Shown piece after piece: positions 3,338 to 15,520 of a stretch of 44,933 bases of DNA (within the stretch, counting starts at the first letter, position 1; each line of letters begins with the position of its first letter). The notes beneath the pieces were generated by a model. That model worked only from the letters and a program-made list of their open reading frames with translations, made no database searches and had not been told where the DNA came from. Origin of the DNA: Bacteroidota bacterium (GTDB lineage Bacteria; Bacteroidota; Bacteroidia; Chitinophagales; Chitinophagaceae); NCBI GenBank assembly GCA_013289065.1, contig JABDAP010000009.1, positions 1 through 44,933 on the forward strand, in the 5' to 3' direction. The translations under genes were made by a program, and so were the position numbers.

Positions 3338-4621
3338 TTATTTTGGCGAGTTATTGAAATAGATCACACCATTCTTGATCACCAATGCAGTCTTGCGGAT
3401 ATCAGAAATATTTTCCGCAGGGTTACCGTCAACAGCGATCACATCTGCATACAAACCTTTTTTGATCCTGCCGATCCTGTCGCCGTAACCAAATACATCG
3501 GCGTTAACAGACGTAGCGCTTTTTAATGCATCAATGGGTTTCATTCCGTAAGAAACCATTGCTTCCAGTTCGCGTGCATTATCACCGTGCGCATATACAC
3601 CCACATCGCCGCCAAAACAAATAGTTACACCTTTCTGTAAAGCGATCGCAAAGCTTTTTCTTTTCACGGTTACTCTTTGCGGTTCGGGTAAGGAGCCTCT
3701 TTTCCAACCGGCATATTCCGATGTTGCTTCGGCTGCGCTCAATGTTGGGCAATAAGCAACTTTATTTTTCACCATCATATCAAATATTTCTTCAGTGCCG
3801 TTATCGCCATGTTCAATGGTAGAAATGCCGGCGAGTATTGCCCTGCGCATGCCTTCTTCTGTACTTGCATGTGCCACCACTTTACGGCCTGCGCTGGCTG
3901 CAACGGCCACCACTGTTTTTAATTCCTCCACTGTAAATGTGGGTGTGGATGTTTGGTTAACACCCCATCGGTAATCGGCATACACTTTTATCAGGTCGGC
4001 GCCATTGCCTATCTGTGTTCTTGTTTCTTTGATCAATGCATCCAATCCATCTGCTTCGGCAGCGCCTTTGACCAATTCATTGTCGATATTTTTTGTTTTC
4101 GGCCCATAACTTCCGGTTGCAACGATGGCGCGTGTGGCAACGATCATTCTCGGGCCGGGTATGATCCCTTTTTCGATGGCTGTTTTTAATCCCACATCAT
4201 CATAACCCGCGCCTTCGGTACCAAGATCACGCACAGTGGTAAATCCTGCCATCAATGTTTTTTTTGCATGAACAACAGCACGTGCAGTACGTTCTGCCCT
4301 TGATTCATTCATCACCTGGTCGTCCCATTTGGTTTCATTATAGGGATGCAGGAATAAATGCGAATGGCCTTCGATCAACCCGGGTAATACTGTTTTTCCT
4401 TTGAGTTCAATGGTTGTATAGATACCATCGGGTTTTATTCCGTCAGCATCGCCAACTGCCACTACCTGGTTTCTCTGGATAAGCACTACCCAGTTGGTAT
4501 GCATGGCTTCACCATCAAATACGCGGTCGGGCTTTAATAAAATAGCGGTGTCTGTTCTTTGTGCGGTTGCCGCAATGGACAGCAATAGCATAAAAGCTAC
4601 TGTCAGGGGATATTTTCTCAT
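3338..4621 (-). CDS. secreted amidohydrolase family protein (imidazolonepropionase/prolidase-like)
   Basis: A signal peptide (residues 1-20, ending AATAQ) precedes a metal-dependent TIM-barrel hydrolase of 427 residues. The metal ligands are visible in order: H86 and H88 (EGHSHLFLH), K211 for carboxylation (DLIKVYAD), H250 (VVAHAS), H270 (TIEHGD) and D338 (FGGDVG). The C-terminal GLYADVIAVDGNP strand is also typical. Such proteins cleave imides or Xaa-Pro/Xaa-Lys dipeptides in the periplasm, but the substrate is not readable here. It is transcribed divergently from the trp leader. Confidence 0.85.
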   Translation of the reverse strand: MRKYPLTVAFMLLLSIAATAQRTDTAILLKPDRVFDGEAMHTNWVVLIQRNQVVAVGDADGIKPDGIYTTIELKGKTVLPGLIEGHSHLFLHPYNETKWDDQVMNESRAERTARAVVHAKKTLMAGFTTVRDLGTEGAGYDDVGLKTAIEKGIIPGPRMIVATRAIVATGSYGPKTKNIDNELVKGAAEADGLDALIKETRTQIGNGADLIKVYADYRWGVNQTSTPTFTVEELKTVVAVAASAGRKVVAHASTEEGMRRAILAGISTIEHGDNGTEEIFDMMVKNKVAYCPTLSAAEATSEYAGWKRGSLPEPQRVTVKRKSFAIALQKGVTICFGGDVGVYAHGDNARELEAMVSYGMKPIDALKSATSVNADVFGYGDRIGRIKKGLYADVIAVDGNPAENISDIRKTALVIKNGVIYFNNSPK

Positions 4622-4673
4622 AGCAATATTGTTACTATGAAGGTAGGGGTAAGAAAGAGCCGCATAAAAAAAA

Positions 4674-4705
4674 TTTGTTTATAACCTTTTTCTCCTGCAC
4701 ATTTG
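4674..4705 (+). promoter_or_regulatory. candidate promoter for trpL-trpE
   Basis: TTTG at 4674-4677 and CACATTTG at 4698-4705 are 20 bp apart. This fits the Bacteroidota pattern TTTG-N19-21-TAnnTTTG with one mismatch in the -7 box. A start about 7 bp downstream would lie at or next to the trpL ATG, implying a nearly leaderless mRNA. It is the best match in the region but not proof. Confidence 0.4.
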
Positions 4706-4712
4706 TATTGAA

Positions 4713-4772
4713 ATGAAACAGGTAATAAATAAATATTGGTGGTGGCATACAAACTCCGTTCGGGGATTGTAA
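4713..4772 (+). CDS. trpL: trp operon leader peptide (attenuator peptide)
   Basis: ATG at 4713 opens a 19-codon frame ending in TAA at 4770-4772: MKQVINKYWWWHTNSVRGL. Three consecutive TGG codons occupy 4737-4745. It is followed by a factor-independent terminator at 4807-4834 and then by trpE. A bunch of Trp codons in a short frame ahead of a terminator is the signature of ribosome-mediated trp attenuation. The geometry fits. A ribosome stalled on the Trp codons would leave 4760-4765 free to pair with 4809-4814 (antiterminator); a ribosome at the stop codon would cover 4760-4765 and let the terminator form. The peptide need not have any function of its own. Confidence 0.85.
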   Translation: MKQVINKYWWWHTNSVRGL

Positions 4773-4806
4773 TGGCATAGCCAGTACTTTTTTGAATTAT
4801 ATTCAG

Positions 4807-4834
4807 AACCCCGACAGATATGTTGGGGTTTTTT
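4807..4834 (+). terminator. trp attenuator terminator
   Basis: The arms 4807-4816 and 4821-4830 form a 10-bp stem with one G-U pair and loop GATA, followed by a T tract through 4834. The 5' arm overlaps the candidate antiterminator partner (4809-4814 with 4760-4765, 6 bp UCGGGG/CCCCGA). A second small hairpin (TGGC/GCCA, 4773-4783) lies just past the trpL stop and may be the pause structure. Confidence 0.85.
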
Positions 4835-4841
4835 ATTTGAT

Positions 4842-5046
4842 TATCTATATTACCCCCGCTCCTAATGGGGGAGGAAGATACTTTAAAGTCCCTTCAGGGA
4901 TTTAGGGTAAAAAAAGAAAATTGATTTAGGGTGAAAAAGAAAAAGCACTTATCTACCCCCGCCCCTAAAAGGGAGATAGAGATACTTTAAAGTCCCTTCA
5001 GGGATTTAGGGTGAAAAAGAAAATTGATTTAGGGTGAAAAGAAAAA
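4842..5046. repeat. ~100-bp direct repeat, two copies, upstream of trpE
   Basis: Copy 1 (about 4842-4943) and copy 2 (about 4950-5046) share a C-run/G-run hairpin, the core tactttaaagtcccttcagg and a tail of gatttagggtgaaaa words. The core itself is a small palindrome (tccc-ttc-aggga). The copies fill all the space between the attenuator and the trpE start, so they lie in the trpE 5' untranslated region. Apart from trpL, the terminator and this repeat, nothing else is seen in 4622-5051. Confidence 0.85.
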
Positions 5047-5051
5047 ACAAT

Positions 5052-6467
5052 ATGAAAAAAATAGACTTACAAACCCAATGCAAAAAAATACTGGCCGATG
5101 TGTTTACGCCGGTAGGCATTTACCTGCGCGTGCGCGACAGGTTTCGCGATACGGTATTGCTGGAAAGTACCGACCATCATTCGGCGGAGAACAGTTATTC
5201 TTTTATCTGTATCAATGCAATTGCGGGTATTGAAATAACGTCTAACAAAAGCATTGAGTTCAAACTGCCTGCACAGAAACCGGAAAGAATAGCTATTAAT
5301 CATACTGCTGAAGTGCCTGACCAACTATGGAATTTTATGCAGCGTTTTGAGGTACATGCACCGGATGCCAAAGAAGGGAAATTTGCGCAGGGATTATTCG
5401 GATATACGGCATTTGATGCTGTACAGTTCTTTGATACCGTTTCTTTAAATAAAACCAACAGCGCAGAACCTGTTGTTCCGTTGATGCGTTACCGCTTGTA
5501 TCAATATGTGATCGCATTCAATCATTTTAAAGACGAACTGTATATCTGTGAAAATGTGATACCTGGCATTGAATCTGACCTCGCCATTGTTGAATCACTG
5601 ATCAGAAGCAAAGATGTGCCTGTATTTCCTTTTAAAATAAAAGGCAAAGAAACATCGAACATGACGGATAATGCCTATAAAGAAATGGTACAAAAAGGAA
5701 TTCAGCGTTGTATGCGCGGCGATGTGTTTCAGATAGTGCTGAGCAGGCGCTTTCAGCAGGAGTTTACGGGCGATGAATTCAATGTATACCGTTCCTTACG
5801 CAGTGTGAACCCTTCTCCTTATTTATTTTTCTTTGATTATGGCGATTATAAACTCATGGGTTCTTCACCAGAAGCGCAATTGATCATTCAAAACGGTAAA
5901 GCCATTGTTCACCCGATCGCAGGAACATTCAAAAGAAGCGGCGATGATACCATCGATCAGCAAATGGCTGAAAAACTTTTGCATGATGCAAAAGAAAATG
6001 CAGAACATGTGATGCTGGTCGACCTCGCGCGTAACGACCTCAGCCGCGCCTGTGATGATGTGGTAGTTAGCCATTACCGCCAGGTACAATATTATAGCCA
6101 CGTGATACATCTGGTGAGCGAAGTAACCGGCAAAGTGCGTAAGGATCAGAACCCGTTCGAGCTGCTTGCAAAAACATTTCCTGCGGGCACATTGAGCGGC
6201 GCGCCAAAATTCAAAGCCATGGAGATCATTGATGAATATGAACCCACCGCAAGAAGTTATTACGGCGGCGGTATCGGTTTCATCGGTTTCGACGGAAGCT
6301 GCAACCACGCCATCATGATCCGTACTTTTTTAAGCAGGAACAATACATTGGTTTACCAGGCAGGTGCAGGCGTAGTAGCAGCAAGCGTTCCTGAAAACGA
6401 ATTGCAGGAAGTGAATAACAAACTGAACGCATTGAAAAAAGCGATCGTGATAGGAGAAGAAATATAG
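5052..6467 (+). CDS. trpE: anthranilate synthase component I
   Basis: It converts chorismate to anthranilate with ammonia from TrpG. The start is ATG 5052 (MKKIDLQTQ); a GTG at 5034 lies in the repeat and is less likely. The N-terminal tryptophan feedback motif LLES is at residues 36-39. The catalytic half shows IVLSRRF, GSSPEAQL, HPIAGTFKRS, DLARNDLSR, FPAGTLSGAPKFKAMEIIDEYE and YYGGGIGFIGFDG. At 471 residues it is the usual length. It is the first structural gene of the trp-his cluster and should be regulated by the attenuator upstream. Confidence 0.97.
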   Translation: MKKIDLQTQCKKILADVFTPVGIYLRVRDRFRDTVLLESTDHHSAENSYSFICINAIAGIEITSNKSIEFKLPAQKPERIAINHTAEVPDQLWNFMQRFEVHAPDAKEGKFAQGLFGYTAFDAVQFFDTVSLNKTNSAEPVVPLMRYRLYQYVIAFNHFKDELYICENVIPGIESDLAIVESLIRSKDVPVFPFKIKGKETSNMTDNAYKEMVQKGIQRCMRGDVFQIVLSRRFQQEFTGDEFNVYRSLRSVNPSPYLFFFDYGDYKLMGSSPEAQLIIQNGKAIVHPIAGTFKRSGDDTIDQQMAEKLLHDAKENAEHVMLVDLARNDLSRACDDVVVSHYRQVQYYSHVIHLVSEVTGKVRKDQNPFELLAKTFPAGTLSGAPKFKAMEIIDEYEPTARSYYGGGIGFIGFDGSCNHAIMIRTFLSRNNTLVYQAGAGVVAASVPENELQEVNNKLNALKKAIVIGEEI

Positions 6468-6526: not shown

Positions 6527-7108
6527 ATGAAAATATTAGTATTTGATAATTACGATTCATTCACCTACAACCTCGTTCATCTCGTGGAAAAGATCACGCA
6601 TACTAAAGTGGATGTTTTTCGTAATGATGAATTGCCGATGGAAAAAGTGAAAGAATATGATAAGATTATCTTGTCTCCCGGCCCGGGCATCCCTTCCGAA
6701 GCGGGTATGTTATTGCCATTGATCAAAGAATACGCCGCGAGCAAATCCATACTGGGCGTGTGTTTGGGGCATCAGGCAATCGGCGAGGCTTTTGGCGGAA
6801 CGCTGACGAATCTGTCTACTGTGTATCATGGAGTGGCAACGCCTATTGAAGTCGGGAGTGAGAAGTCCGGAGTGAGAAGTGAATTATTTGAAGGGTTGCC
6901 GGATACTTTTGATGTGGGGCGTTATCATAGCTGGGTAGTGGATGAAAAGAATTTCCCTGCCGAACTGGAAATTACCGCACGTGATGTAAATGGATTTATT
7001 ATGGGTTTGCAGCATTTGCAGTTTGATGTGCAGGGTGTTCAGTTTCATCCGGAAAGCGTGTTGACCCCATCAGGCGAGATGATTTTAAAAAACTGGTTAA
7101 AAAAATAA
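6527..7108 (+). CDS. trpG: anthranilate synthase component II (glutamine amidotransferase)
   Basis: It is a class I glutamine amidotransferase that supplies ammonia to TrpE. The catalytic triad is C79 (GVCLGHQ), H174 and E176 (QFHPES). The oxyanion loop SPGPGIPSEAG is at residues 50-60. Length is 193 residues. Between the beta-strand VATPIEV and LFEGLP, residues 110-119 (GSEKSGVRSE) come from a tandem 14-15-nt duplication (6851-6881). Its sequence closely resembles the family A intergenic repeats, and most TrpG proteins are shorter at this surface loop. The active site is intact, so the enzyme is probably functional. Confidence 0.97.
   Translation: MKILVFDNYDSFTYNLVHLVEKITHTKVDVFRNDELPMEKVKEYDKIILSPGPGIPSEAGMLLPLIKEYAASKSILGVCLGHQAIGEAFGGTLTNLSTVYHGVATPIEVGSEKSGVRSELFEGLPDTFDVGRYHSWVVDEKNFPAELEITARDVNGFIMGLQHLQFDVQGVQFHPESVLTPSGEMILKNWLKK
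6850..6882 (+). repeat. family A-like repeat inside trpG
   Basis: The sequence is two tandem copies of tcgggagtgagaag/tccggagtgagaag. This matches the arm word gtctggagttagaag of the intergenic family A palindromes apart from a few substitutions. It is read in frame as about ten residues of trpG. Confidence 0.55.
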
Positions 7109-7155
7109 CCGCGGAGACGCAGAGGCGCTAAGATTTAACTCTGCGTCTCTACGGT
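7108..7155. repeat. intergenic palindrome, family B-like (copy 2)
   Basis: The arms 7108-7124 and 7139-7155 pair over 15 of 17 positions (word gcggagacgcagag). It directly follows the trpG stop and lies 12 bp before trpD. Confidence 0.75.
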
Positions 7156-7167
7156 AAAAAAAATGAC

Positions 7168-8160
7168 ATGAAAAAAATATTGCAACATTTATTTGAACAC
7201 AAAACGCTTTCGCGTGAAAAAGCAAAAGAAGTATTGCTGAATATGTCGCGCGGGCAATATAATGAAAGCGAGATGTCGGCATTCATTACCGTGTTCCTCA
7301 TGCGAAGTATTACCATTGAAGAACTCCAGGGCTTTCGCGATGCATTGCTGGAACTTTCTGTAAAGGTTGATCTCGGCGGCCACCAGCTGATGGATATTGT
7401 TGGTACCGGCGGTGATGGAAAGAATACATTCAATATTTCAACGCTTTCCTGTTTTGTGGTGGCGGGTGCGGGACAAAAAGTGGCCAAACACGGTAACTAC
7501 GGCGCTTCTTCCATCAGCGGTTCATCAAATGTTATGGAACAACTGGGGTACGTTTTTAAAAATGATACCGACAGGTTGCGTAAAGAAATTGAAATGGCAA
7601 ACATTTGTTTTTTGCATGCACCCTTATTTCATCCCGCATTAAAGATCGTTGGGCCGATCAGGAAAAATTTAGGTGTGAGAACTTTTTTCAATATGCTTGG
7701 GCCAATGGTAAATCCGGCATCGCCGGCATTTCAGCTGGTGGGTGTATATAATTTAGAAATGGCGCGTATTTATAATTACCTGTTGCAGCAAACGGGTAAA
7801 GCATTTACCATTATTCACAGCCTTGATGGATATGATGAGATCTCGCTTACCAACGATACCAAAGTGATCACTAATGAAGGCGAAAAAATAATGACACCCG
7901 AACAACTGGGCAAACGCATGGTTGCCGCCGAAGATATTTATGGCGGGAACAGTGTTGAAGAAGCCGCGAAAATATTTACAAAGATCATAAAAGGCGAAGG
8001 CAGCTGGGCACAGAATGCAGTGGTGATGGCCAATGCAGCTATGGCACTGCAATGCACCGGCCAGTATAAAAATTATGAGGAAGCATATAACGCCGCAGTG
8101 GAAAGCCTGGAAAGCGGTAAAACCTATCAAACATTGCAAACTTTAATCAGCCTGCAGTAA
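7168..8160 (+). CDS. trpD: anthranilate phosphoribosyltransferase
   Basis: It transfers phosphoribose from PRPP to anthranilate. The PRPP-binding loop GTGGDGKNTFNIST is at residues 79-92, followed by KHGNYGASSISGSSNVME (107-124), the anthranilate/PRPP site. FLHAPLFHPALK and VRTFFNMLGPMVNPA are also typical. At 330 residues it has the normal length. It ends 1 bp before trpC. Confidence 0.97.
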   Translation: MKKILQHLFEHKTLSREKAKEVLLNMSRGQYNESEMSAFITVFLMRSITIEELQGFRDALLELSVKVDLGGHQLMDIVGTGGDGKNTFNISTLSCFVVAGAGQKVAKHGNYGASSISGSSNVMEQLGYVFKNDTDRLRKEIEMANICFLHAPLFHPALKIVGPIRKNLGVRTFFNMLGPMVNPASPAFQLVGVYNLEMARIYNYLLQQTGKAFTIIHSLDGYDEISLTNDTKVITNEGEKIMTPEQLGKRMVAAEDIYGGNSVEEAAKIFTKIIKGEGSWAQNAVVMANAAMALQCTGQYKNYEEAYNAAVESLESGKTYQTLQTLISLQ

Positions 8161-8161
8161 G

Positions 8162-8947
8162 ATGAATATTTTAGACACGATAGTAGCGCATAAAAGAAAA
8201 GAAGTTGCCGAGCGCAAAAAAACAACTCCTGTTGCCGAACTGGAGAAAGGAAAATTCTTTGCAGATAAAACTTTGTCTCTGAAATCTTTTCTGCTCGACG
8301 AAAATAAAACAGGCATCATTGCCGAGTTCAAACGAAAGTCGCCGAGTAAAGGGGTCATCAATGATAAAGTAACAGTGGAAGAAGTTACTACGGCTTACGC
8401 AAAATATGGCGCATCAGGAATTTCTGTTCTGACTGACCGGGAATTTTTTGGCGGATCGCTGGATGATTTGCTGGCGGCCACTATCAATGCGGTTCCATTG
8501 TTACGGAAAGATTTTATGATCGATGAATACCAGCTGATCGAAGCCAAGGCTTTTGGTGCAGAAGTAATACTGCTGATCGCCGCATGTTTAACTACCGCCG
8601 AAGTAAAACAAATGGCAGCAACAGCAAAGAATCTGGGAATGGAAGTATTACTCGAAGTGCATAATGAAGAAGAGTTCGGCCATATCTGCGATGCGGTTGA
8701 CCTGGTTGGGGTTAACAACCGGAACCTGAAAACATTTGAAGTAAGCATTAATACATCGCTCGATCTTATTAACAAGATACCCAAAGAAAAACCTGCGGTG
8801 GCGGAAAGCGGTATCAGTGATGTAGATACTATTGTAACTTTGCGCAGCGCCGGATTCAAAGGATTTTTGATCGGAGAAAATTTTATGAAACAGGCCAGCC
8901 CTTCGGTTGCTTTTGCTGATTTTGTTAATCAACTAAAAGCAAAATAA
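8162..8947 (+). CDS. trpC: indole-3-glycerol-phosphate synthase
   Basis: It converts carboxyphenylaminodeoxyribulose phosphate to indole-3-glycerol phosphate. The (beta/alpha)8 barrel of 261 residues shows the catalytic strand IIAEFKRKSPSKG (E55, K57), LLRKDFMIDEYQL, LLIAA, VGVNNRNL and AESGI in the expected order. It is monofunctional: TrpF is a separate gene whose ATG overlaps the trpC TAA by one base, which suggests translational coupling. Confidence 0.97.
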   Translation: MNILDTIVAHKRKEVAERKKTTPVAELEKGKFFADKTLSLKSFLLDENKTGIIAEFKRKSPSKGVINDKVTVEEVTTAYAKYGASGISVLTDREFFGGSLDDLLAATINAVPLLRKDFMIDEYQLIEAKAFGAEVILLIAACLTTAEVKQMAATAKNLGMEVLLEVHNEEEFGHICDAVDLVGVNNRNLKTFEVSINTSLDLINKIPKEKPAVAESGISDVDTIVTLRSAGFKGFLIGENFMKQASPSVAFADFVNQLKAK

Positions 8948-9588
8948 TGCGTATAAAAGTTTGCGGCATGACAAGCGCTGAACAGGTTCTTCAACTCGAT
9001 GAAATGGGTGTTGAATTTGCGGGGTTTATCTTTTATCCCAAATCGCCGCGTTATGTATACAAATTCATGCCGAGGCCGGAGATCAAAAAAATAAAAGGCA
9101 AGGGCATCAATAAAGTGGGTGTGTTTGTAAATGCAACGGTGGAAGAAGTACTGGAAACGGTTGATGATTGCGGTTTATATATTGTGCAGCTGCACGGCGA
9201 TGAAACGCCAAAGTATTGCGAGAAGATCGCAAACTATGTAACGGTAGTAAAAGCTTTCCGTTTACGCGAAGAGGATAATATTTTATGGAAGATCAAAGAT
9301 TACAACGATATCGCCGATATGTACCTGTTTGATACCGAAGGCGCGGGTTATGGCGGAACGGGAAGAAAGTTTGACTGGAACGTTTTAAAAGGATTGAATA
9401 TCGGCAAGCCTTTTTTTCTCAGCGGTGGCATTGAACCGGATGATACGGATAAATTAAAGGATTTTGCCAAAGAACCCGTGGCGAAGGATCTTTTTTCAAT
9501 TGATGTGAACAGTAAGTTTGAAACATCGCCGGGTGTGAAGGATATGGAGAAGCTACAGAAATTTATTGAAACGGTAAAACAAATTTAA
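8947..9588 (+). CDS. trpF: phosphoribosylanthranilate isomerase
   Basis: It performs the Amadori rearrangement of phosphoribosylanthranilate. The start KVCGMTS has the catalytic Cys6. VQLHGDETP, YLFDTEGAGYGGTGRKFDW (catalytic Asp) and FLSGGI follow, with SIDVNSKFETSPGVKD near the C-terminus. Length is 213 residues. It overlaps trpC by one base. Confidence 0.96.
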   Translation: MRIKVCGMTSAEQVLQLDEMGVEFAGFIFYPKSPRYVYKFMPRPEIKKIKGKGINKVGVFVNATVEEVLETVDDCGLYIVQLHGDETPKYCEKIANYVTVVKAFRLREEDNILWKIKDYNDIADMYLFDTEGAGYGGTGRKFDWNVLKGLNIGKPFFLSGGIEPDDTDKLKDFAKEPVAKDLFSIDVNSKFETSPGVKDMEKLQKFIETVKQI

Positions 9589-9606
9589 GTTGAGCAGAGA
9601 GGTATT

Positions 9607-9628
9607 GCACAAGTGTGCGACGCAACAA
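9607..9628. repeat. 22-nt dispersed repeat, family C (copy 1)
   Basis: The 22 bases beginning gcacaagtgtgcgacgcaac are identical to 14873-14894. The first 12 bases form a small palindrome (gcaca/tgtgc). It lies between trpF and trpB, in an operon gap of 77 bp. Confidence 0.8.
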
Positions 9629-9665
9629 AGCTTAATGTTAATACAACAGCTAAGTAAAAAATAAA

Positions 9666-10868
9666 ATGACAACAACACAAACATACCAGCACCCCGATGT
9701 TCACGGATACTACGGAAAATTCGGCGGCGCATATATTCCTGAAATGTTGCACAGGAATGTAGAAGAATTGGCAACGCGGTATCTCGAGATCATGTATGAA
9801 ACTTCTTTTCAGAAAGAGTTTCAGCTTTTATTAAAAGATTATGTGGGCAGGCCAACACCTTTGTTCTTTGCGGAAAGATTAAGTAAAGAATTTAATGCTT
9901 CTATTTATTTGAAGAGGGAAGATCTTTGTCATACAGGCGCCCACAAGATCAACAATACGATCGGCCAGATCTTACTTGCGCGGAAACTGGGCAAGACCCG
10001 CATCATTGCTGAAACCGGCGCAGGCCAGCACGGCGTGGCAACTGCAACGGTTTGTGCATTGAAAGGAATGGAATGTATTGTATACATGGGTGAAAAAGAC
10101 ATAGAGCGGCAGGCGCCGAATGTTGCGCGGATGAAAATGCTGGGCGCAAAAGTAATTCCTGCAATGAGCGGAAGCAGGACATTGAAAGATGCCACGAATG
10201 AAGCGATACGCGACTGGATCAATAACCCGGTTGATACACATTATATTATTGGAAGCGTGGTGGGGCCGCATCCATATCCCGATATGGTTGCGCGTTTTCA
10301 AAGTGTGATCAGTGAAGAAATGAAATGGCAGCTGAAAGAAAAAACAGGAAATGAATTGCCAACGCATGTTCTTGCCTGTGTGGGCGGCGGCAGTAATGCA
10401 GCCGGTGCATTTTATCATTTTTTAGATGAGCTGAGTGTACAATTGGTTGCAGTTGAAGCTGCGGGCCATGGCGTGCATAGCGGTATGAGCGCAGCCACAA
10501 CACAATTAGGTAAACCGGGTATTTTACATGGAAGCAAAAGCCTGGTGATGCAAACAGCAGATGGCCAGGTGGTAGAGCCACACAGCATTTCAGCCGGGCT
10601 GGATTATCCGGGTGTTGGCCCTTTACATGCGCATCTTTTTGAAAGCGGCCGCGGAACTTTTTTAAGTGCAACCGATGATGAAGCATTGCAGGCGGCTTTT
10701 CATATCGCTAAAACAGAAGGTATTATTCCTGCATTGGAAAGCGCACATGCATTTTCTGTTTTAGGGAAACTGCATTTAAAAGATACGGACCGTGTATTGG
10801 TTTGTTTAAGCGGAAGAGGAGATAAGGATCTGGCAACCTACATGAATGCAATGGACAATATTAAATGA
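9666..10868 (+). CDS. trpB: tryptophan synthase beta chain
   Basis: It is a PLP enzyme that joins indole and serine. The PLP lysine is K94 in [14 protein letters not shown]. The phosphate-binding GGGSNAAG loop and the DYPGVGP stretch typical of TrpB1 are present. The start [14 protein letters not shown] is canonical. At 400 residues it has the usual length. It ends 1 bp before trpA, its complex partner. Confidence 0.98.
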
Positions 10869-10869
10869 T

Positions 10870-11643
10870 ATGAGCAGGATCAAAGAATTATTTGCAAAGA
10901 AAAAAAATAACGTTCTGAATGTTTACTGCACGGCAGGCTATCCGCATTTGAATGATACACTCAGTATCATGAAAGCATTGCAGGATAATGGGGTTGACCT
11001 GGTAGAACTCGGCATGCCTTACAGCGATCCACTCGCCGATGGCCCGGTAATACAAGCCAGCGGCAGCAAGGCTTTGGAGAACGGCATGACGATCGAAGTA
11101 TTATTTGAACAGCTGAAAAACTTCAGGAAAGAAATCAATCTTCCCGTGATATTAATGGGTTACATGAACCCTGTATTGCAATATGGTTTTGAAAAATTCT
11201 GTGCAACCGCGGCTGAATTAGGTATTGATGGTTTGATACTTCCCGACCTTCCTGAATTTGAATTTGAAACGGAATATGGCGCGATCATAAAAAAGCATGG
11301 GCTTGATTTTATTTTTTTGGTAACACCCGAAACATCTGAAGAACGCATAAAAAAACTCGATGCGTTAAGCAGCGGTTTTTTGTATGCTGTGAGCTCATCG
11401 GCAACAACCGGCAAAGACAAAGATTTTACGGCTGTTGAAAAATATCTGCAAAGATTACAATCAATGGAATTGGAGAACCCTGTATTGGTAGGCTTTGGCA
11501 TAAAGGATAAAGCTACATTCGGATCCGCCTGTAAGTTTTCAAACGGTGCAATTATCGGAACGGCATTTATCAAAGCGTTGGAAAACAGCGATGCGGGATC
11601 ATTGCAGACACGGGTAAAAACTTTTGTACAAACTGTATTATGA
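10870..11643 (+). CDS. trpA: tryptophan synthase alpha chain
   Basis: It cleaves indole-3-glycerol phosphate to indole for TrpB. The ATG at 10870 (MSRIKELF) is chosen over an upstream in-frame start inside trpB. The catalytic acids are E47 (VELGMP) and D57 (YSDPLADGP). LPDLPEFE and the YAVSSSATTG phosphate loop are present. Length is 257 residues. The last codons overlap the next gene by 4 bp (ATGA). Confidence 0.97.
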   Translation: MSRIKELFAKKKNNVLNVYCTAGYPHLNDTLSIMKALQDNGVDLVELGMPYSDPLADGPVIQASGSKALENGMTIEVLFEQLKNFRKEINLPVILMGYMNPVLQYGFEKFCATAAELGIDGLILPDLPEFEFETEYGAIIKKHGLDFIFLVTPETSEERIKKLDALSSGFLYAVSSSATTGKDKDFTAVEKYLQRLQSMELENPVLVGFGIKDKATFGSACKFSNGAIIGTAFIKALENSDAGSLQTRVKTFVQTVL

Positions 11644-12203: not shown

Positions 12204-12785
12204 ATGAAACTGGTAATCGTAAAATACAATGCCGGAAATATTCAATCAGTGTTATATGCATTGGAGCGTATAGGCATGGAAGCAACCGTAACGGATGATC
12301 ATAGTGAAATACAGAAGGCCGATAAAGTAATTTTTCCCGGCGTAGGCGAAGCAAGTACCGCCATGCAGTATTTACAGGAAAGAGGATTGGATAAGGTTCT
12401 CAGAAATCTGCAACAGCCTGTTCTTGGTATTTGTCTTGGCATGCAGCTGATGTGCCGTCATAGTGAAGAAAATGATACAACCTGTTTAGGGATATTTGAT
12501 ACCATGGTAAAAAAATTTTCCGGTACATTAAAGATCCCGCAGGTTGGATGGAACACGGTAGAAAATATTTCCGAACCGCTTTTTGCCGGCATCACAACCG
12601 ATCCGTATTGTTATTTTGTGCATAGTTATTATGCAGAACTTTGTAAAGAAACTGCCGCTGTTACAGAATATGGCGTGCGTTTCAGCAGTGCATTACAAAA
12701 GAATAATTTTTATGGTGTACAGTTTCACCCGGAAAAAAGTTCGGATGCCGGTGAAAGAATTCTTATTAACTTCCTTCAATTATAA
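12204..12785 (+). CDS. hisH: imidazole glycerol phosphate synthase, glutaminase subunit
   Basis: It supplies ammonia to HisF. The class I amidotransferase triad is C77 (GICLGMQ), H175 and E177 (QFHPEKS). PGVGEASTAM and VGWNTVE are typical of HisH rather than TrpG. Length is 193 residues. It is the first his gene of the cluster. No separate his leader peptide or terminator was found in front of it, so expression probably comes from the trp side. Confidence 0.97.
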   Translation: MKLVIVKYNAGNIQSVLYALERIGMEATVTDDHSEIQKADKVIFPGVGEASTAMQYLQERGLDKVLRNLQQPVLGICLGMQLMCRHSEENDTTCLGIFDTMVKKFSGTLKIPQVGWNTVENISEPLFAGITTDPYCYFVHSYYAELCKETAAVTEYGVRFSSALQKNNFYGVQFHPEKSSDAGERILINFLQL

Positions 12786-12815
12786 CCCAACCCGATTATT
12801 AACTGTTAATTTTTA

Positions 12816-13547
12816 ATGTCTAATTATCCCATGCAGATCATTCCCGCAATTGATATCATTAATGGCAAATGTGTACGATTGACACAAGGCGACTATTCCC
12901 AGAAAACCGAATACAGCGAATCACCGCTCGAAGTGGCTAAACAGTTTGAGGCCGCGGGTTTACAGCGTTTGCACCTTGTTGATCTTGACGGCGCCAAAGC
13001 AGGCGTTGTTAAAAACTGGAAAGTACTGGAGACCATCGCATCGAATACTTCCCTGGTGATCGATTTTGGCGGCGGTATAAAAAAAGAAACGGATCTCACC
13101 ATTGTATTTCAATCAGGCGCGGCATTGGCAACCATTGGCAGCCTGGCGGTTAAGAATGCAGATACTTTTGTACAATGGATAGATAAGTACGGCGGCAATA
13201 AATTTTTATTAGGCGCCGATGTAAGAAAAGAAATGATCGCAGTAAATGGCTGGATGGAAACAACGGATATTGATGTGTATGATTTTATTCAGCAGTACGT
13301 TCACAAAGGCATTCAGCAGGTATTTTGTACGGATGTTCTGAAAGACGGAAAATTAGAAGGCCCTTCCATCGAGATGTACACGAACATCATTGAAAAATTT
13401 CCTTCGCTGTATTTTATTGCAAGCGGCGGAGTTAGTTCGATAACCGACCTGGAAGAACTGAAAAATATCGGTTGCAGCGGAGCTATTGTTGGCAAGGCGA
13501 TCTATGAAGGAAGGATCAGGCTTTCTGATTTGAAATTTCTGATTTGA
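12816..13547 (+). CDS. hisA: ProFAR isomerase (1-(5-phosphoribosyl)-5-[(5-phosphoribosylamino)methylideneamino]imidazole-4-carboxamide isomerase)
   Basis: The (beta/alpha)8 isomerase shows IIPAIDIINGKCVRL, HLVDLDGAKAG, DFGGGIK, FLLGADVRKE and ASGGVSS. An in-frame ATG at 12831 (MQIIPAID) is an equally plausible start. The last codons (KFLI, stop) are encoded by the left arm of the 21-bp inverted repeat that encloses the next ORF, so the natural C-terminus has probably been rewritten. The barrel itself is complete. Confidence 0.96.
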   Translation: MSNYPMQIIPAIDIINGKCVRLTQGDYSQKTEYSESPLEVAKQFEAAGLQRLHLVDLDGAKAGVVKNWKVLETIASNTSLVIDFGGGIKKETDLTIVFQSGAALATIGSLAVKNADTFVQWIDKYGGNKFLLGADVRKEMIAVNGWMETTDIDVYDFIQQYVHKGIQQVFCTDVLKDGKLEGPSIEMYTNIIEKFPSLYFIASGGVSSITDLEELKNIGCSGAIVGKAIYEGRIRLSDLKFLI

Positions 13548-13985
13548 GATTCGAAATTTGAAATTATGGCTACGATAAAACGATTTGAAGATCTTGAAAT
13601 ATGGATAGAAGCGAGGCGGCTTTCTTTATGCATCTTTGAAATAACACAAAAAGAAACATTCTCACGGGAATATAAATTCAAAGACCAGATAAAGGCTTCT
13701 GCCGGATCAGTGATGGATAATATTGCTGAAGGTTTTGAACGATCCGGCAGATTAGAGTTTGTAAATTTTTTAGGTTTTGCAAAAGGCTCGGCCGGAGAGG
13801 TACGTTCTCAATGTTACCGGGCTTTTGATCAGGGATATATAACACAGGATGAATTCGATGATCTTTATTCAGGCTACGAAAAACTGGCATCAAATATTGC
13901 AGGATTTATAAATTATCTAAACAGGTCAGCCATCAAAGGCCAAAAATTTAAAGACAGAATATAATCTCAAATCAGAAATTTCAAA
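13529..13985. mobile_element. 21-bp inverted-repeat cassette enclosing a four-helix-bundle ORF
   Basis: The arms 13529-13549 and 13965-13985 are perfectly complementary over 21 bp. They enclose one ORF with only 16 bp before its ATG and none after its stop. The left arm supplies the last codons and stop of hisA; the right arm ends 11 bp before hisF. A second stretch of the left flank (13553-13565) is also complementary to the right arm. ORFs of this family are known from 23S rRNA intervening sequences, which also have complementary ends. Calling it mobile is inference, since no transposase is present. Confidence 0.6.
13566..13964 (+). CDS. four-helix-bundle protein (23S rRNA intervening-sequence protein family)
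   Basis: It has 132 residues and is almost entirely helical. The family marks are clear: [13 protein letters not shown] near the start, [44 protein letters not shown] in the middle, and a C-terminal helix ending in YLNRS. These are the S23/IVS-ORF four-helix-bundle proteins, which pentamerise in known structures and include the Avd accessory protein of diversity-generating retroelements. Their stand-alone function is unknown. It interrupts the his genes between hisA and hisF and is framed by the inverted repeat. Confidence 0.9.
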
Positions 13986-13996
13986 TTTCAAATTCA

Positions 13997-14755
13997 ATGC
14001 TCACAAAAAGGATCATACCCTGTTTAGATATCAAAGACGGCAGAACGGTCAAGGGTGTGAACTTTGAAAACATCCGCGATGCAGGCGACCCGGTTGAACT
14101 GGGCGCTTTATACGCACAACAGGGCGCCGATGAATTGGTTTTCTTAGACATTACTGCTACTGTTGAAAAAAGAAAAACATTAAGCGAACTCGTAAATAAA
14201 ATATCGCACCATATCAATATTCCATTTACGGTGGGTGGCGGGATCAGTAGTGTGGATGATGTGAGTGTGTTGTTACAAAACGGCGCCGATAAAATATCTG
14301 TGAACACCGCCGCATTTAAAAACCCGCAACTGATCGCCGATCTCTCGAAACAGTTTGGCAGCCAGTGTGTGGTTCTTGCGATCGACACAAAAAAAGAAGC
14401 GGACGGCGAATGGTATGTTTACCTGAACGGCGGCAGGGTAAAAACAGAAATGCGTTGTATTGATTGGGCTAAGCAGGCCGTGGATATGGGCGCCGGTGAA
14501 ATATTACTCACTTCTATGAACCACGATGGTACCAAACAGGGTTTTGCATTGGATATTACCGCAACTTTGGCTACGGAACTTACCGTACCAGTGATCGCAT
14601 CAGGCGGTGGCGGAACGATGGAACATTTTGTGGATGTGTTTACCAATGGAAAAGCTGACGCTGCATTGGCGGCGAGCATTTTTCATTTTAAAGAGATCGG
14701 GATAAGGGAGTTGAAAACATATTTGAATGCGAATGGGATTGTTGTGAGGGTGTGA
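13997..14755 (+). CDS. hisF: imidazole glycerol phosphate synthase, cyclase subunit
   Basis: It makes IGP and AICAR using ammonia from HisH. The catalytic aspartates fall at the canonical positions D11 ([14 protein letters not shown]) and D130 (LAIDTK). [35 protein letters not shown] and [11 protein letters not shown] follow. Length is 252 residues. The palindromic repeat after the gene begins right at its TGA. Confidence 0.98.
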
Positions 14756-14765
14756 ATCGTGAGTC

Positions 14766-14850
14766 GCCAGTCGTGAATCGTCAGTCGTGAATCGTGAGTA
14801 GAATGTTCATTACCCCACTCACGATTCACGACTGACGACTCACGGCTGGC
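14766..14850. repeat. palindrome between hisF and hisIE
   Basis: The arms 14766-14798 and 14818-14850 pair over 31 of 33 positions. They consist of tandem words of the form cgtgaatcgtcagt. Additional words extend the left side to the hisF stop (14753). No T tract follows. Confidence 0.85.
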
Positions 14851-14872
14851 AAAGCCGAACAACGAACCGAAC

Positions 14873-14894
14873 GCACAAGTGTGCGACGCAACAA
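14873..14894. repeat. 22-nt dispersed repeat, family C (copy 2)
   Basis: It is identical to 9607-9628 over 22 bases. It again lies in an operon gap, 30 bp before the hisIE start. Confidence 0.8.
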
Positions 14895-14923
14895 TGCCCA
14901 ATTAATAATCACAAGCCGGAAAC

Positions 14924-15520
14924 ATGAAAATAGATTTTGCAAAATATTCAGATGGATTGGTTCCCGCAATCGTGCAGGACTTTACCACGCATAAAGTATT
15001 GATGCTTGGTTTTATGAATGAAGCTGCATTGCAACAAACCGAACAGAGCGGCAAAGTGACTTTTTACAGCCGCACAAAAAAAAGGTTATGGACAAAAGGC
15101 GAGGAGAGCGGTAATTTTTTAGAAGTAAAAAGCATGGCGGCAGATTGCGACCATGATACTTTGCTGATCAAAGCCCATCCACTGGGCCCTGTTTGTCATA
15201 CAGGCGCCGATACCTGCTGGAGCGAAAGGAATGCGGATGATAATTTTTTATTATATCTCGAAGAGATCATCCGCCTGCGCAAACAGAGCAGCCCTGAAGA
15301 GTCTTATGTGGCAAAGATGTTTGCCAAAGGCATTAATAAAATAGCCCAGAAAGTAGGCGAAGAAGCCGTAGAGCTTGTGATCGAGGCCAAAGACGATAAC
15401 GATGAACTGTTTTTGAATGAAGCCGCCGATCTATTGTTCCATTATTTACTTTTGCTTAACGCCAAAGGCCATAACTTGCAAAGCGTAATGAATGTGCTTC
15501 AAAAACGTCACCATAAATAA
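14924..15520 (+). CDS. hisI: bifunctional phosphoribosyl-AMP cyclohydrolase / phosphoribosyl-ATP pyrophosphatase
   Basis: It is a HisIE fusion. The N-terminal cyclohydrolase (about residues 1-108) shows MLGFMNEAAL, FYSRTKKRLWTKGEESGNFL, the metal-binding DCDHDT, and HTGADTCW. The C-terminal pyrophosphohydrolase helices (about 112-198) show KGINKIAQKVGEEAVELVIEA and NEAADLLFHYLLLL. It performs steps 2 and 3 of histidine synthesis. Length is 198 residues, normal for the fusion. Confidence 0.96.
   Translation: MKIDFAKYSDGLVPAIVQDFTTHKVLMLGFMNEAALQQTEQSGKVTFYSRTKKRLWTKGEESGNFLEVKSMAADCDHDTLLIKAHPLGPVCHTGADTCWSERNADDNFLLYLEEIIRLRKQSSPEESYVAKMFAKGINKIAQKVGEEAVELVIEAKDDNDELFLNEAADLLFHYLLLLNAKGHNLQSVMNVLQKRHHK

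Follow-up and report, generated by a model that had tools for sequence, protein, structure and literature searches.

Organization of the trp Locus

In this study, a window of 44,933 nucleotides from a Chitinophagaceae genome (assembly GCA_013289065.1, contig JABDAP010000009.1) was analyzed. The window contained a putative attenuator followed by trpEGDCFBA (Table 1). The gene upstream of it (3338–4621) was located on the opposite strand. The trp operon was flanked by his genes on both sides (1554–2759 and 12204–15520). The upstream his gene was a hisB phosphatase-dehydratase fusion, and 12204–15520 contained frames resembling hisH, A, F, and IE, which were named from their translations only.

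Table 1. Features of the trp leader region and operon, with positions in the window.
Feature	Position	Strand	Basis and remarks
Predicted −33 element TTTG of a Bacteroidota sigma-A promoter	4674..4677	+	20 nt before the −7 box
Predicted −7 element CACATTTG (consensus TAHHTTTG)	4698..4705	+	7 nt between its end and the leader ATG
Predicted transcription start G	4710	+	From the position of the box; 3-nt 5′ UTR
Leader peptide gene (trpL-like), MKQVINKYWWWHTNSVRGL, stop TAA	4713..4772	+	Read from the sequence; conserved in relatives
Three tandem Trp codons TGG (putative sensor)	4737..4745	+	WWW in 74/83 same-family leaders
Predicted 1:2 hairpin: inner stem 4754–4757/4762–4765, outer arms 4734–4752/4767–4786 including the Trp codons	4734..4786	+	MFE folds
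Candidate antiterminator strand 2 (UCGGGG)	4760..4765	+	Pairs with CCCCGA at 4809–4814, 6 bp exact; sequence and folds
Predicted intrinsic terminator: arms 4807–4816/4821–4830, loop 4817–4820, T run 4829–4834	4807..4834	+	Sequence, fold, covariation
Two copies of a 98-nt repeat, outside the switch	4846..5047	+	Between terminator and trpE
trpE, first gene predicted to be regulated	5052..6467	+	NCBIfam TIGR00564 trpE_most best match, E 2.4e-124; 415.8 bits, below the cut-off of 517.7
trpG-trpD-trpC-trpF-trpB-trpA	6527..11643	+	Over an NCBIfam cut-off: trpG_papA, trpD, TrpC, trpB, trpA; below it: trpF

The initial annotation had proposed a 19-codon leader frame with WWW, a 10-bp terminator with a U tract downstream of its stop, and a 6-bp antiterminator excluding the terminator. 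All three were borne out. Direct reading of the window gave a frame starting at 4713 (ATG AAA CAG GTA ATA AAT AAA TAT TGG TGG TGG CAT ACA AAC TCC GTT CGG GGA TTG TAA, stop at 4770–4772), which encoded exactly the 19-residue peptide claimed. The terminator stem had 10 bp including one G-U pair, and 34 nt separated it from the leader stop codon. The complementarity of the two antiterminator strands was exact. The minimum free energy of 4700–4845 was −47.6, compared with −27.6 ± 3.3 in 200 shuffles (z −6.07).

Strand 2 also had a second partner, CUCC at 4754–4757, which could pair with its GGGG (4762–4765). Since both this inner stem and the outer arms pair, a 1:2 hairpin would sequester strand 2 in the absence of a ribosome. 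The initial annotation mentioned neither the 1:2 hairpin nor the promoter nor the Rfam family that already exists.

With two repeat copies in between, the distance from leader to trpE (339 nt) ranked in the top three of 83. The copies were 72% alike at a spacing of 104. Two further copies of the 26-nt core of the repeat, with 3 mismatches each, were present in the assembly on contig C107.

Leaders Upstream of trpE in Relatives

A total of 117 same-family (Chitinophagaceae) genomes were searched, including the source genome, and a trpE/pabB relative was found in at least 114. Among the matches listed, 86 loci were accepted as trpE by score. An ATG-started WW or WWW leader was found in 83 of these 86 loci, 121–476 nt before trpE. 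One locus (L036) carried a WWW leader that begins with GTG, one (L067) had a single Trp codon and kept the terminator, and in one (L082) no Trp leader was found. The peptide tails varied, with RGx in 45/83 and xGVx in 14/83; GGGG and its partner CCCC were kept in most leaders.

A named collection was represented by the best 80 of at least 584 relatives, 79 of which had at least 120 nt upstream. These 79 loci carried 66 WWW, 6 WW, 1 WRW, and 6 single-Trp leaders. Some contigs were common to both sets, so the same-family and named-collection counts are not independent. The nearest named relative among the best 80 was Sediminibacterium soli (81% in TrpE). By their titles, the named-collection relatives appear to be Chitinophagaceae.

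Single-Trp leaders (GWH) were present in L067, L285, L286, L289, and L291–L293, of which L067 and L289 probably represent a single contig. The GGGG strand and the CCCC terminator arm were retained in them. By their sequences, these leaders may be natural reduced versions of the sensor. Natural leaders with one, two, and three Trp codons permit a comparison of sensor sensitivity.

WWW occurred in a short ATG frame on the sense strand of 145 of 183 trpE upstream regions and on the antisense strand of none. The antisense count for PPP, 67, corresponded to TGG runs read in reverse, and the next sense run was LLL with 19. The 183 regions comprised the 86 loci of the family set and 101 further loci (3 of them same-family), less 4 that were too short; about half were therefore same-family. 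With ATG or GTG starts, WWW was found in 78/89 same-family and 69/98 other-family loci. The phylum sample consisted of genomes with a TrpE relative above the score limit (56/149 in one set and 113/198 in another). Its loci were 38 of 40 order matches outside the family (2 partial ones were dropped), 34 of 34 elsewhere in the class, and 26 of 68 outside the class. The Trp run persisted outside the family with other flanking residues; some of the leaders picked there by rule are probably wrong frames (L120, L192).

A covariance model (R1) was tried for mapping beyond the family and was rejected. It gave 12 strong matches (≥79.5 bits) in 149 order genomes, all in the same family, and several of these leaders had served to train R1. 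Matches below 50 bits, including 26 in the source genome at E ≤ 10, were set aside; by coordinates, some were located just before trpE (G245, G146, G132).

TnaC is a peptide that stalls its ribosome in response to free tryptophan. A WWW peptide of that kind would respond to tryptophan excess and not to starvation, and an effect in the exit tunnel is conceivable for the conserved peptide NxWWWHTNSxRGL. However, the residues that follow WWW vary along with the RNA (RGL, SGV, and TLKGL tails), the Trp run is kept outside the family in other surroundings, and the downstream genes are biosynthetic. Arrest by free tryptophan is very improbable, and stalling at Trp codons for lack of charged tRNA is the reading followed below.

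Conservation and Covariation of the RNA Structures

The MAFFT alignment of 63 leaders was not used for pair counts, since the leaders with SGV tails were shifted by one column. For this reason, pair counts were restricted to 44 same-family leaders with RGx tails (20 of the 63 aligned leaders were excluded and L054 was added). In this set, the terminator had 96.6% standard pairs, with 7 of 10 pairs changed on both sides, and its covariation score was reached by 0/500 shuffles.

The four G-C pairs of the antiterminator core were standard in 44/44 leaders, including two double changes from G-C to A-U (L038, L064). Only 4 double-change cells were found in the antiterminator, 2 of them in the core. 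Its covariation was not above shuffles in the 44 leaders (62/500 for pairing and 362/500 for score), because the core hardly varies. The four pairs of the inner 1:2 stem were 96.0% standard, and their covariation in the 44 leaders was not above shuffles either (82/500). The initial annotation had suggested looking for conserved tandem Trp codons and covarying stems upstream of trpE. The Trp codons were conserved and the terminator stem covaried.

By itself, the rule for a hairpin with a T run is satisfied by half to two thirds of shuffles. Therefore, the score and not the presence of a hairpin was counted as evidence. The hairpin and T run scored above all 20 shuffles of their own stretch in 82/86 same-family and 83/86 other leaders. 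The terminator stem was located 22–58 nt past the leader stop in 85 of the 86 same-family leaders.

The pairing of strand 2 with the terminator was compared across leaders. The mean energy of cognate duplexes between strand 2 and the terminator arm was −15.12, against −14.28 ± 0.24 for re-dealt arms (p 0.0004), a difference that includes the relatedness of the sequences. This comparison covered 65 of 83 leaders, with 18 left out because they were atypical or had a badly placed terminator, and it spoke for the antiterminator. Against mononucleotide shuffles of the leader, complementarity of strand 2 to the 5′ arm had p ≤ 0.05 in 67/86 same-family leaders; no strong match to the 5′ arm was seen in some, such as L047, L069, and L076–L079. 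Outside the family, p ≤ 0.05 was reached for the 5′ arm in 18/84 leaders and for the loop plus 3′ arm in 19/84, with about 4 expected at 5%. In the family f25, strand 2 was complementary to the loop plus 3′ arm in 11/18 leaders and to the 5′ arm in 0/18.

In four same-family leaders (L059, L073–L075), the last codons (e.g., CGCTGTG) were complementary to the 3′ arm of the terminator and not to the 5′ arm, which resembles f25. L085 and L087 were distant trpE copies (48–50% identity) with another leader, YWWLSRWQ, and the leader of L086 was similar. Read from the sequence of L085 and L087, UUCACG could pair with CGUGAA, and GAACAGC with GCUGUUC of the terminator.

Ribosome-Masking Folds

The effect of ribosome position on folding was investigated with the partial and the full-length transcript. 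In the partial transcript, which ended before the terminator 3′ arm, 5 or 6 of the 6 antiterminator pairs formed when the A site of the ribosome held the first or the last Trp codon. No antiterminator pair formed when the ribosome was absent or at the stop codon. In the full-length fold, the terminator formed wherever the ribosome was placed, and with a stalled ribosome the antiterminator could be imposed only at a cost of 6.6 to 9.5 kcal/mol. In the E. coli trp leader used as control, the terminator was likewise kept in the full transcript, and the antiterminator formed only in the partial one, at the second Trp codon. Because the E. coli control behaved in the same way, full-length folding under ribosome masks was discarded as a test.

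Since the terminator wins the full-length fold both here and in E. coli, the switch has to operate kinetically. Masking thus reveals an order of folding and not a stable switch, and by this measure the E. coli leader does not outperform the window. Folding with and without masking had been proposed in the initial annotation; the partial transcript behaved as expected from it, and in the full-length transcript masking alone showed no switching. The claim that the geometry works as in enteric trp attenuation was supported by the partial-transcript folds and the E. coli control: a stall at the Trp codons would free strand 2, and a ribosome at the stop position would cover it. In these models, antiterminator pairing that excludes the terminator, together with the ribosome geometry it requires, would be a possibility of the sequence.

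Predicted Promoter and Transcription Start

A box matching NAHHTT[TC]G ended 2–12 nt before the leader ATG in 80/86 same-family leaders, and exactly 7 nt before it in 47. The box was also found in 66 of 72 loci of the named collection, from the best 80 of at least 584 relatives. As a control, the pattern was sought 13–40 nt upstream, where it occurred in 47/86 leaders, mostly at 31–38 nt, which is the place of the −33 TTTG. The best −33 match at spacings of 17–26 was the full TTTG in 71/83 same-family leaders, with a spacing of 19 or 20 nt in 57 of these.

Terminator formation in every full-length fold is also what would be expected of a plain intrinsic terminator behind an unrelated small gene, without regulation. 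The kept spacing between leader and terminator, the promoter box directly before the leader, and the upstream gene on the other strand all argue against such an arrangement, which is extremely unlikely.

The −7 consensus TAHHTTTG and the spacing have been reported for F. johnsoniae, where the box places its G at −5 (PMC6847099), and a box at −12 to −5 has been given likewise (PMC9723704). The start at the window was therefore predicted at G4710, with a 5′ UTR of 3 nt. Among the 80 box-bearing same-family leaders, the predicted +1 was a purine in 64 and the predicted −1 a pyrimidine in 62, and the predicted 5′ UTR was 0–5 nt long in 77. Thus, the source branch seems to begin its message almost at the first codon of the leader, and a nearly leaderless leader gene is predicted.

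Short leaders are a minority in the published Bacteroidota maps (PMC6847099, PMC9723704, PMC7366714). For F. johnsoniae, 87% of predicted transcripts were reported to have a leader of more than 10 nt (PMC6847099). Leaderless mRNAs accounted for 5.5% in F. psychrophilum (PMC9723704), and about 3.7% of the 5′ UTRs in B. thetaiotaomicron were under 10 nt (PMC7366714). In f25 (18 leaders), 12 boxes were located 16–20 nt before the ATG and 5 at 5–7 nt.

Proposed Mechanism

Ribosome-mediated transcription attenuation of the trp operon is, on the sequence evidence, very probably the best explanation. Transcription would start about 3 nt before the leader AUG, and a ribosome would begin on the leader at once. 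With sufficient charged tRNA-Trp, the ribosome would pass the three Trp codons, reach the stop at 4770, and cover strand 2. The terminator would then form, and RNA polymerase would leave before trpE. When charged tRNA-Trp is short, the ribosome would stall once a Trp codon occupies the A site, so that strand 1 is masked and strand 2 is free. Free strand 2 could pair with 4809–4814 before the 3′ arm of the terminator is made, and the polymerase would continue into trpEGDCFBA.

Classical attenuation requires a ribosome close behind the polymerase, and Bacteroidota lack Shine-Dalgarno sequences. With a start 0–5 nt before the AUG, as predicted in the family, the first ribosome would therefore load on the 5′ end of the RNA without a Shine-Dalgarno sequence or upstream context, and the leader RNA would be a sensor of transcription-translation coupling. 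This near-leaderless family design, together with the WWW leaders at 69 of the 98 other-family trpE loci, would point to trp attenuation as ancestral in Bacteroidota. What would then have changed between families is the mode of initiation and the part of the terminator targeted by the antiterminator (the 5′ arm or the loop with the 3′ arm). We lean slightly towards this combined picture. A conserved attenuator without a Shine-Dalgarno sequence could serve as a simple reporter for coupling and near-leaderless initiation in Bacteroidota.

Comparison with Known Systems

Computational surveys of attenuators have reportedly been published; one by Lopatovskaya and others is among the references of PMC4833913. 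No paper on Chitinophagaceae trp leaders was found in the literature searched, which was covered by title and start of abstract and lay largely outside subscription journals. Clues for leader-peptide attenuation before amino-acid operons have been described in a flavobacterium (PMC9723704). These Flavobacterium psychrophilum candidates belong to another family, and the word “tryptophan” occurs 0 times in the main text of that paper.

A Bacteroidota trp leader, RF01692 Bacteroid-trp, is named in Table 1 of PMC2864571. Rfam describes it as “Bacteroidete tryptophan peptide leader RNA”. RF01692 resembles the source element in having a WWW leader peptide and a terminator before trpE in Bacteroidota. 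RF01692 exceeded its cut-off (49 bits) in 4/20 loci (L132, L133, L139, L185) and in 8/118 phylum genomes, all of f25, as well as in the control genome Bacteroides ihuae. We infer the identity of f25 from its RF01692 and Flavo-1 matches. This family differs from the source family in its boxes, mostly 16–20 nt before the ATG, and in strand 2, which targets the loop plus 3′ arm.

RF01692 was over its cut-off in 0/117 same-family genomes and did not match at the window, nor was it among 21 Rfam matches at E ≤ 10 in 4600–5060. None of these 21 was a T-box, and no T-box match in the window reached its gathering score; control of the leader by a T-box, TRAP, or a repressor can be regarded as highly unlikely beside ribosome-mediated attenuation. 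The single RF01692 match in the source genome had 21.4 bits and was located on another contig. Among the 15 best places below the cut-off in the family, 11 were directly before trpE, the best with 41.7 bits. We read the same-family leaders as distant members of the RF01692 kind. At its cut-off, the Rfam trp-leader model misses a whole family. The kind of trp attenuator is already known for Bacteroidota through RF01692.

The E. coli trp attenuator (trpL; RF00513 Trp_leader) has the same order of Trp codons, 1:2 hairpin, 2:3 antiterminator, and 3:4 terminator, and behaves similarly in the masking folds. It differs in having WW and 14 codons, compared with WWW and 19 codons at the window, where the promoter is of another type and almost no 5′ UTR is predicted. 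RF00513 (cut-off 41 bits) gave no match at the window, and weak matches of 29.2 and 27.9 bits were found in L175 and L186. In Sinorhizobium meliloti trpL, the leader frame is likewise reported at the 5′ extremity of the attenuator RNA (PMC7298713). That RNA begins with the ATG itself, whereas about 3 nt precede it in the prediction for the window, and the organism belongs to another phylum. The present analysis adds the −7 box before the leader ATG, the predicted 3-nt 5′ UTR, the 1:2 hairpin, and the relatives with one Trp codon, and the near-leaderless start is a possible variant of the known trp attenuators.
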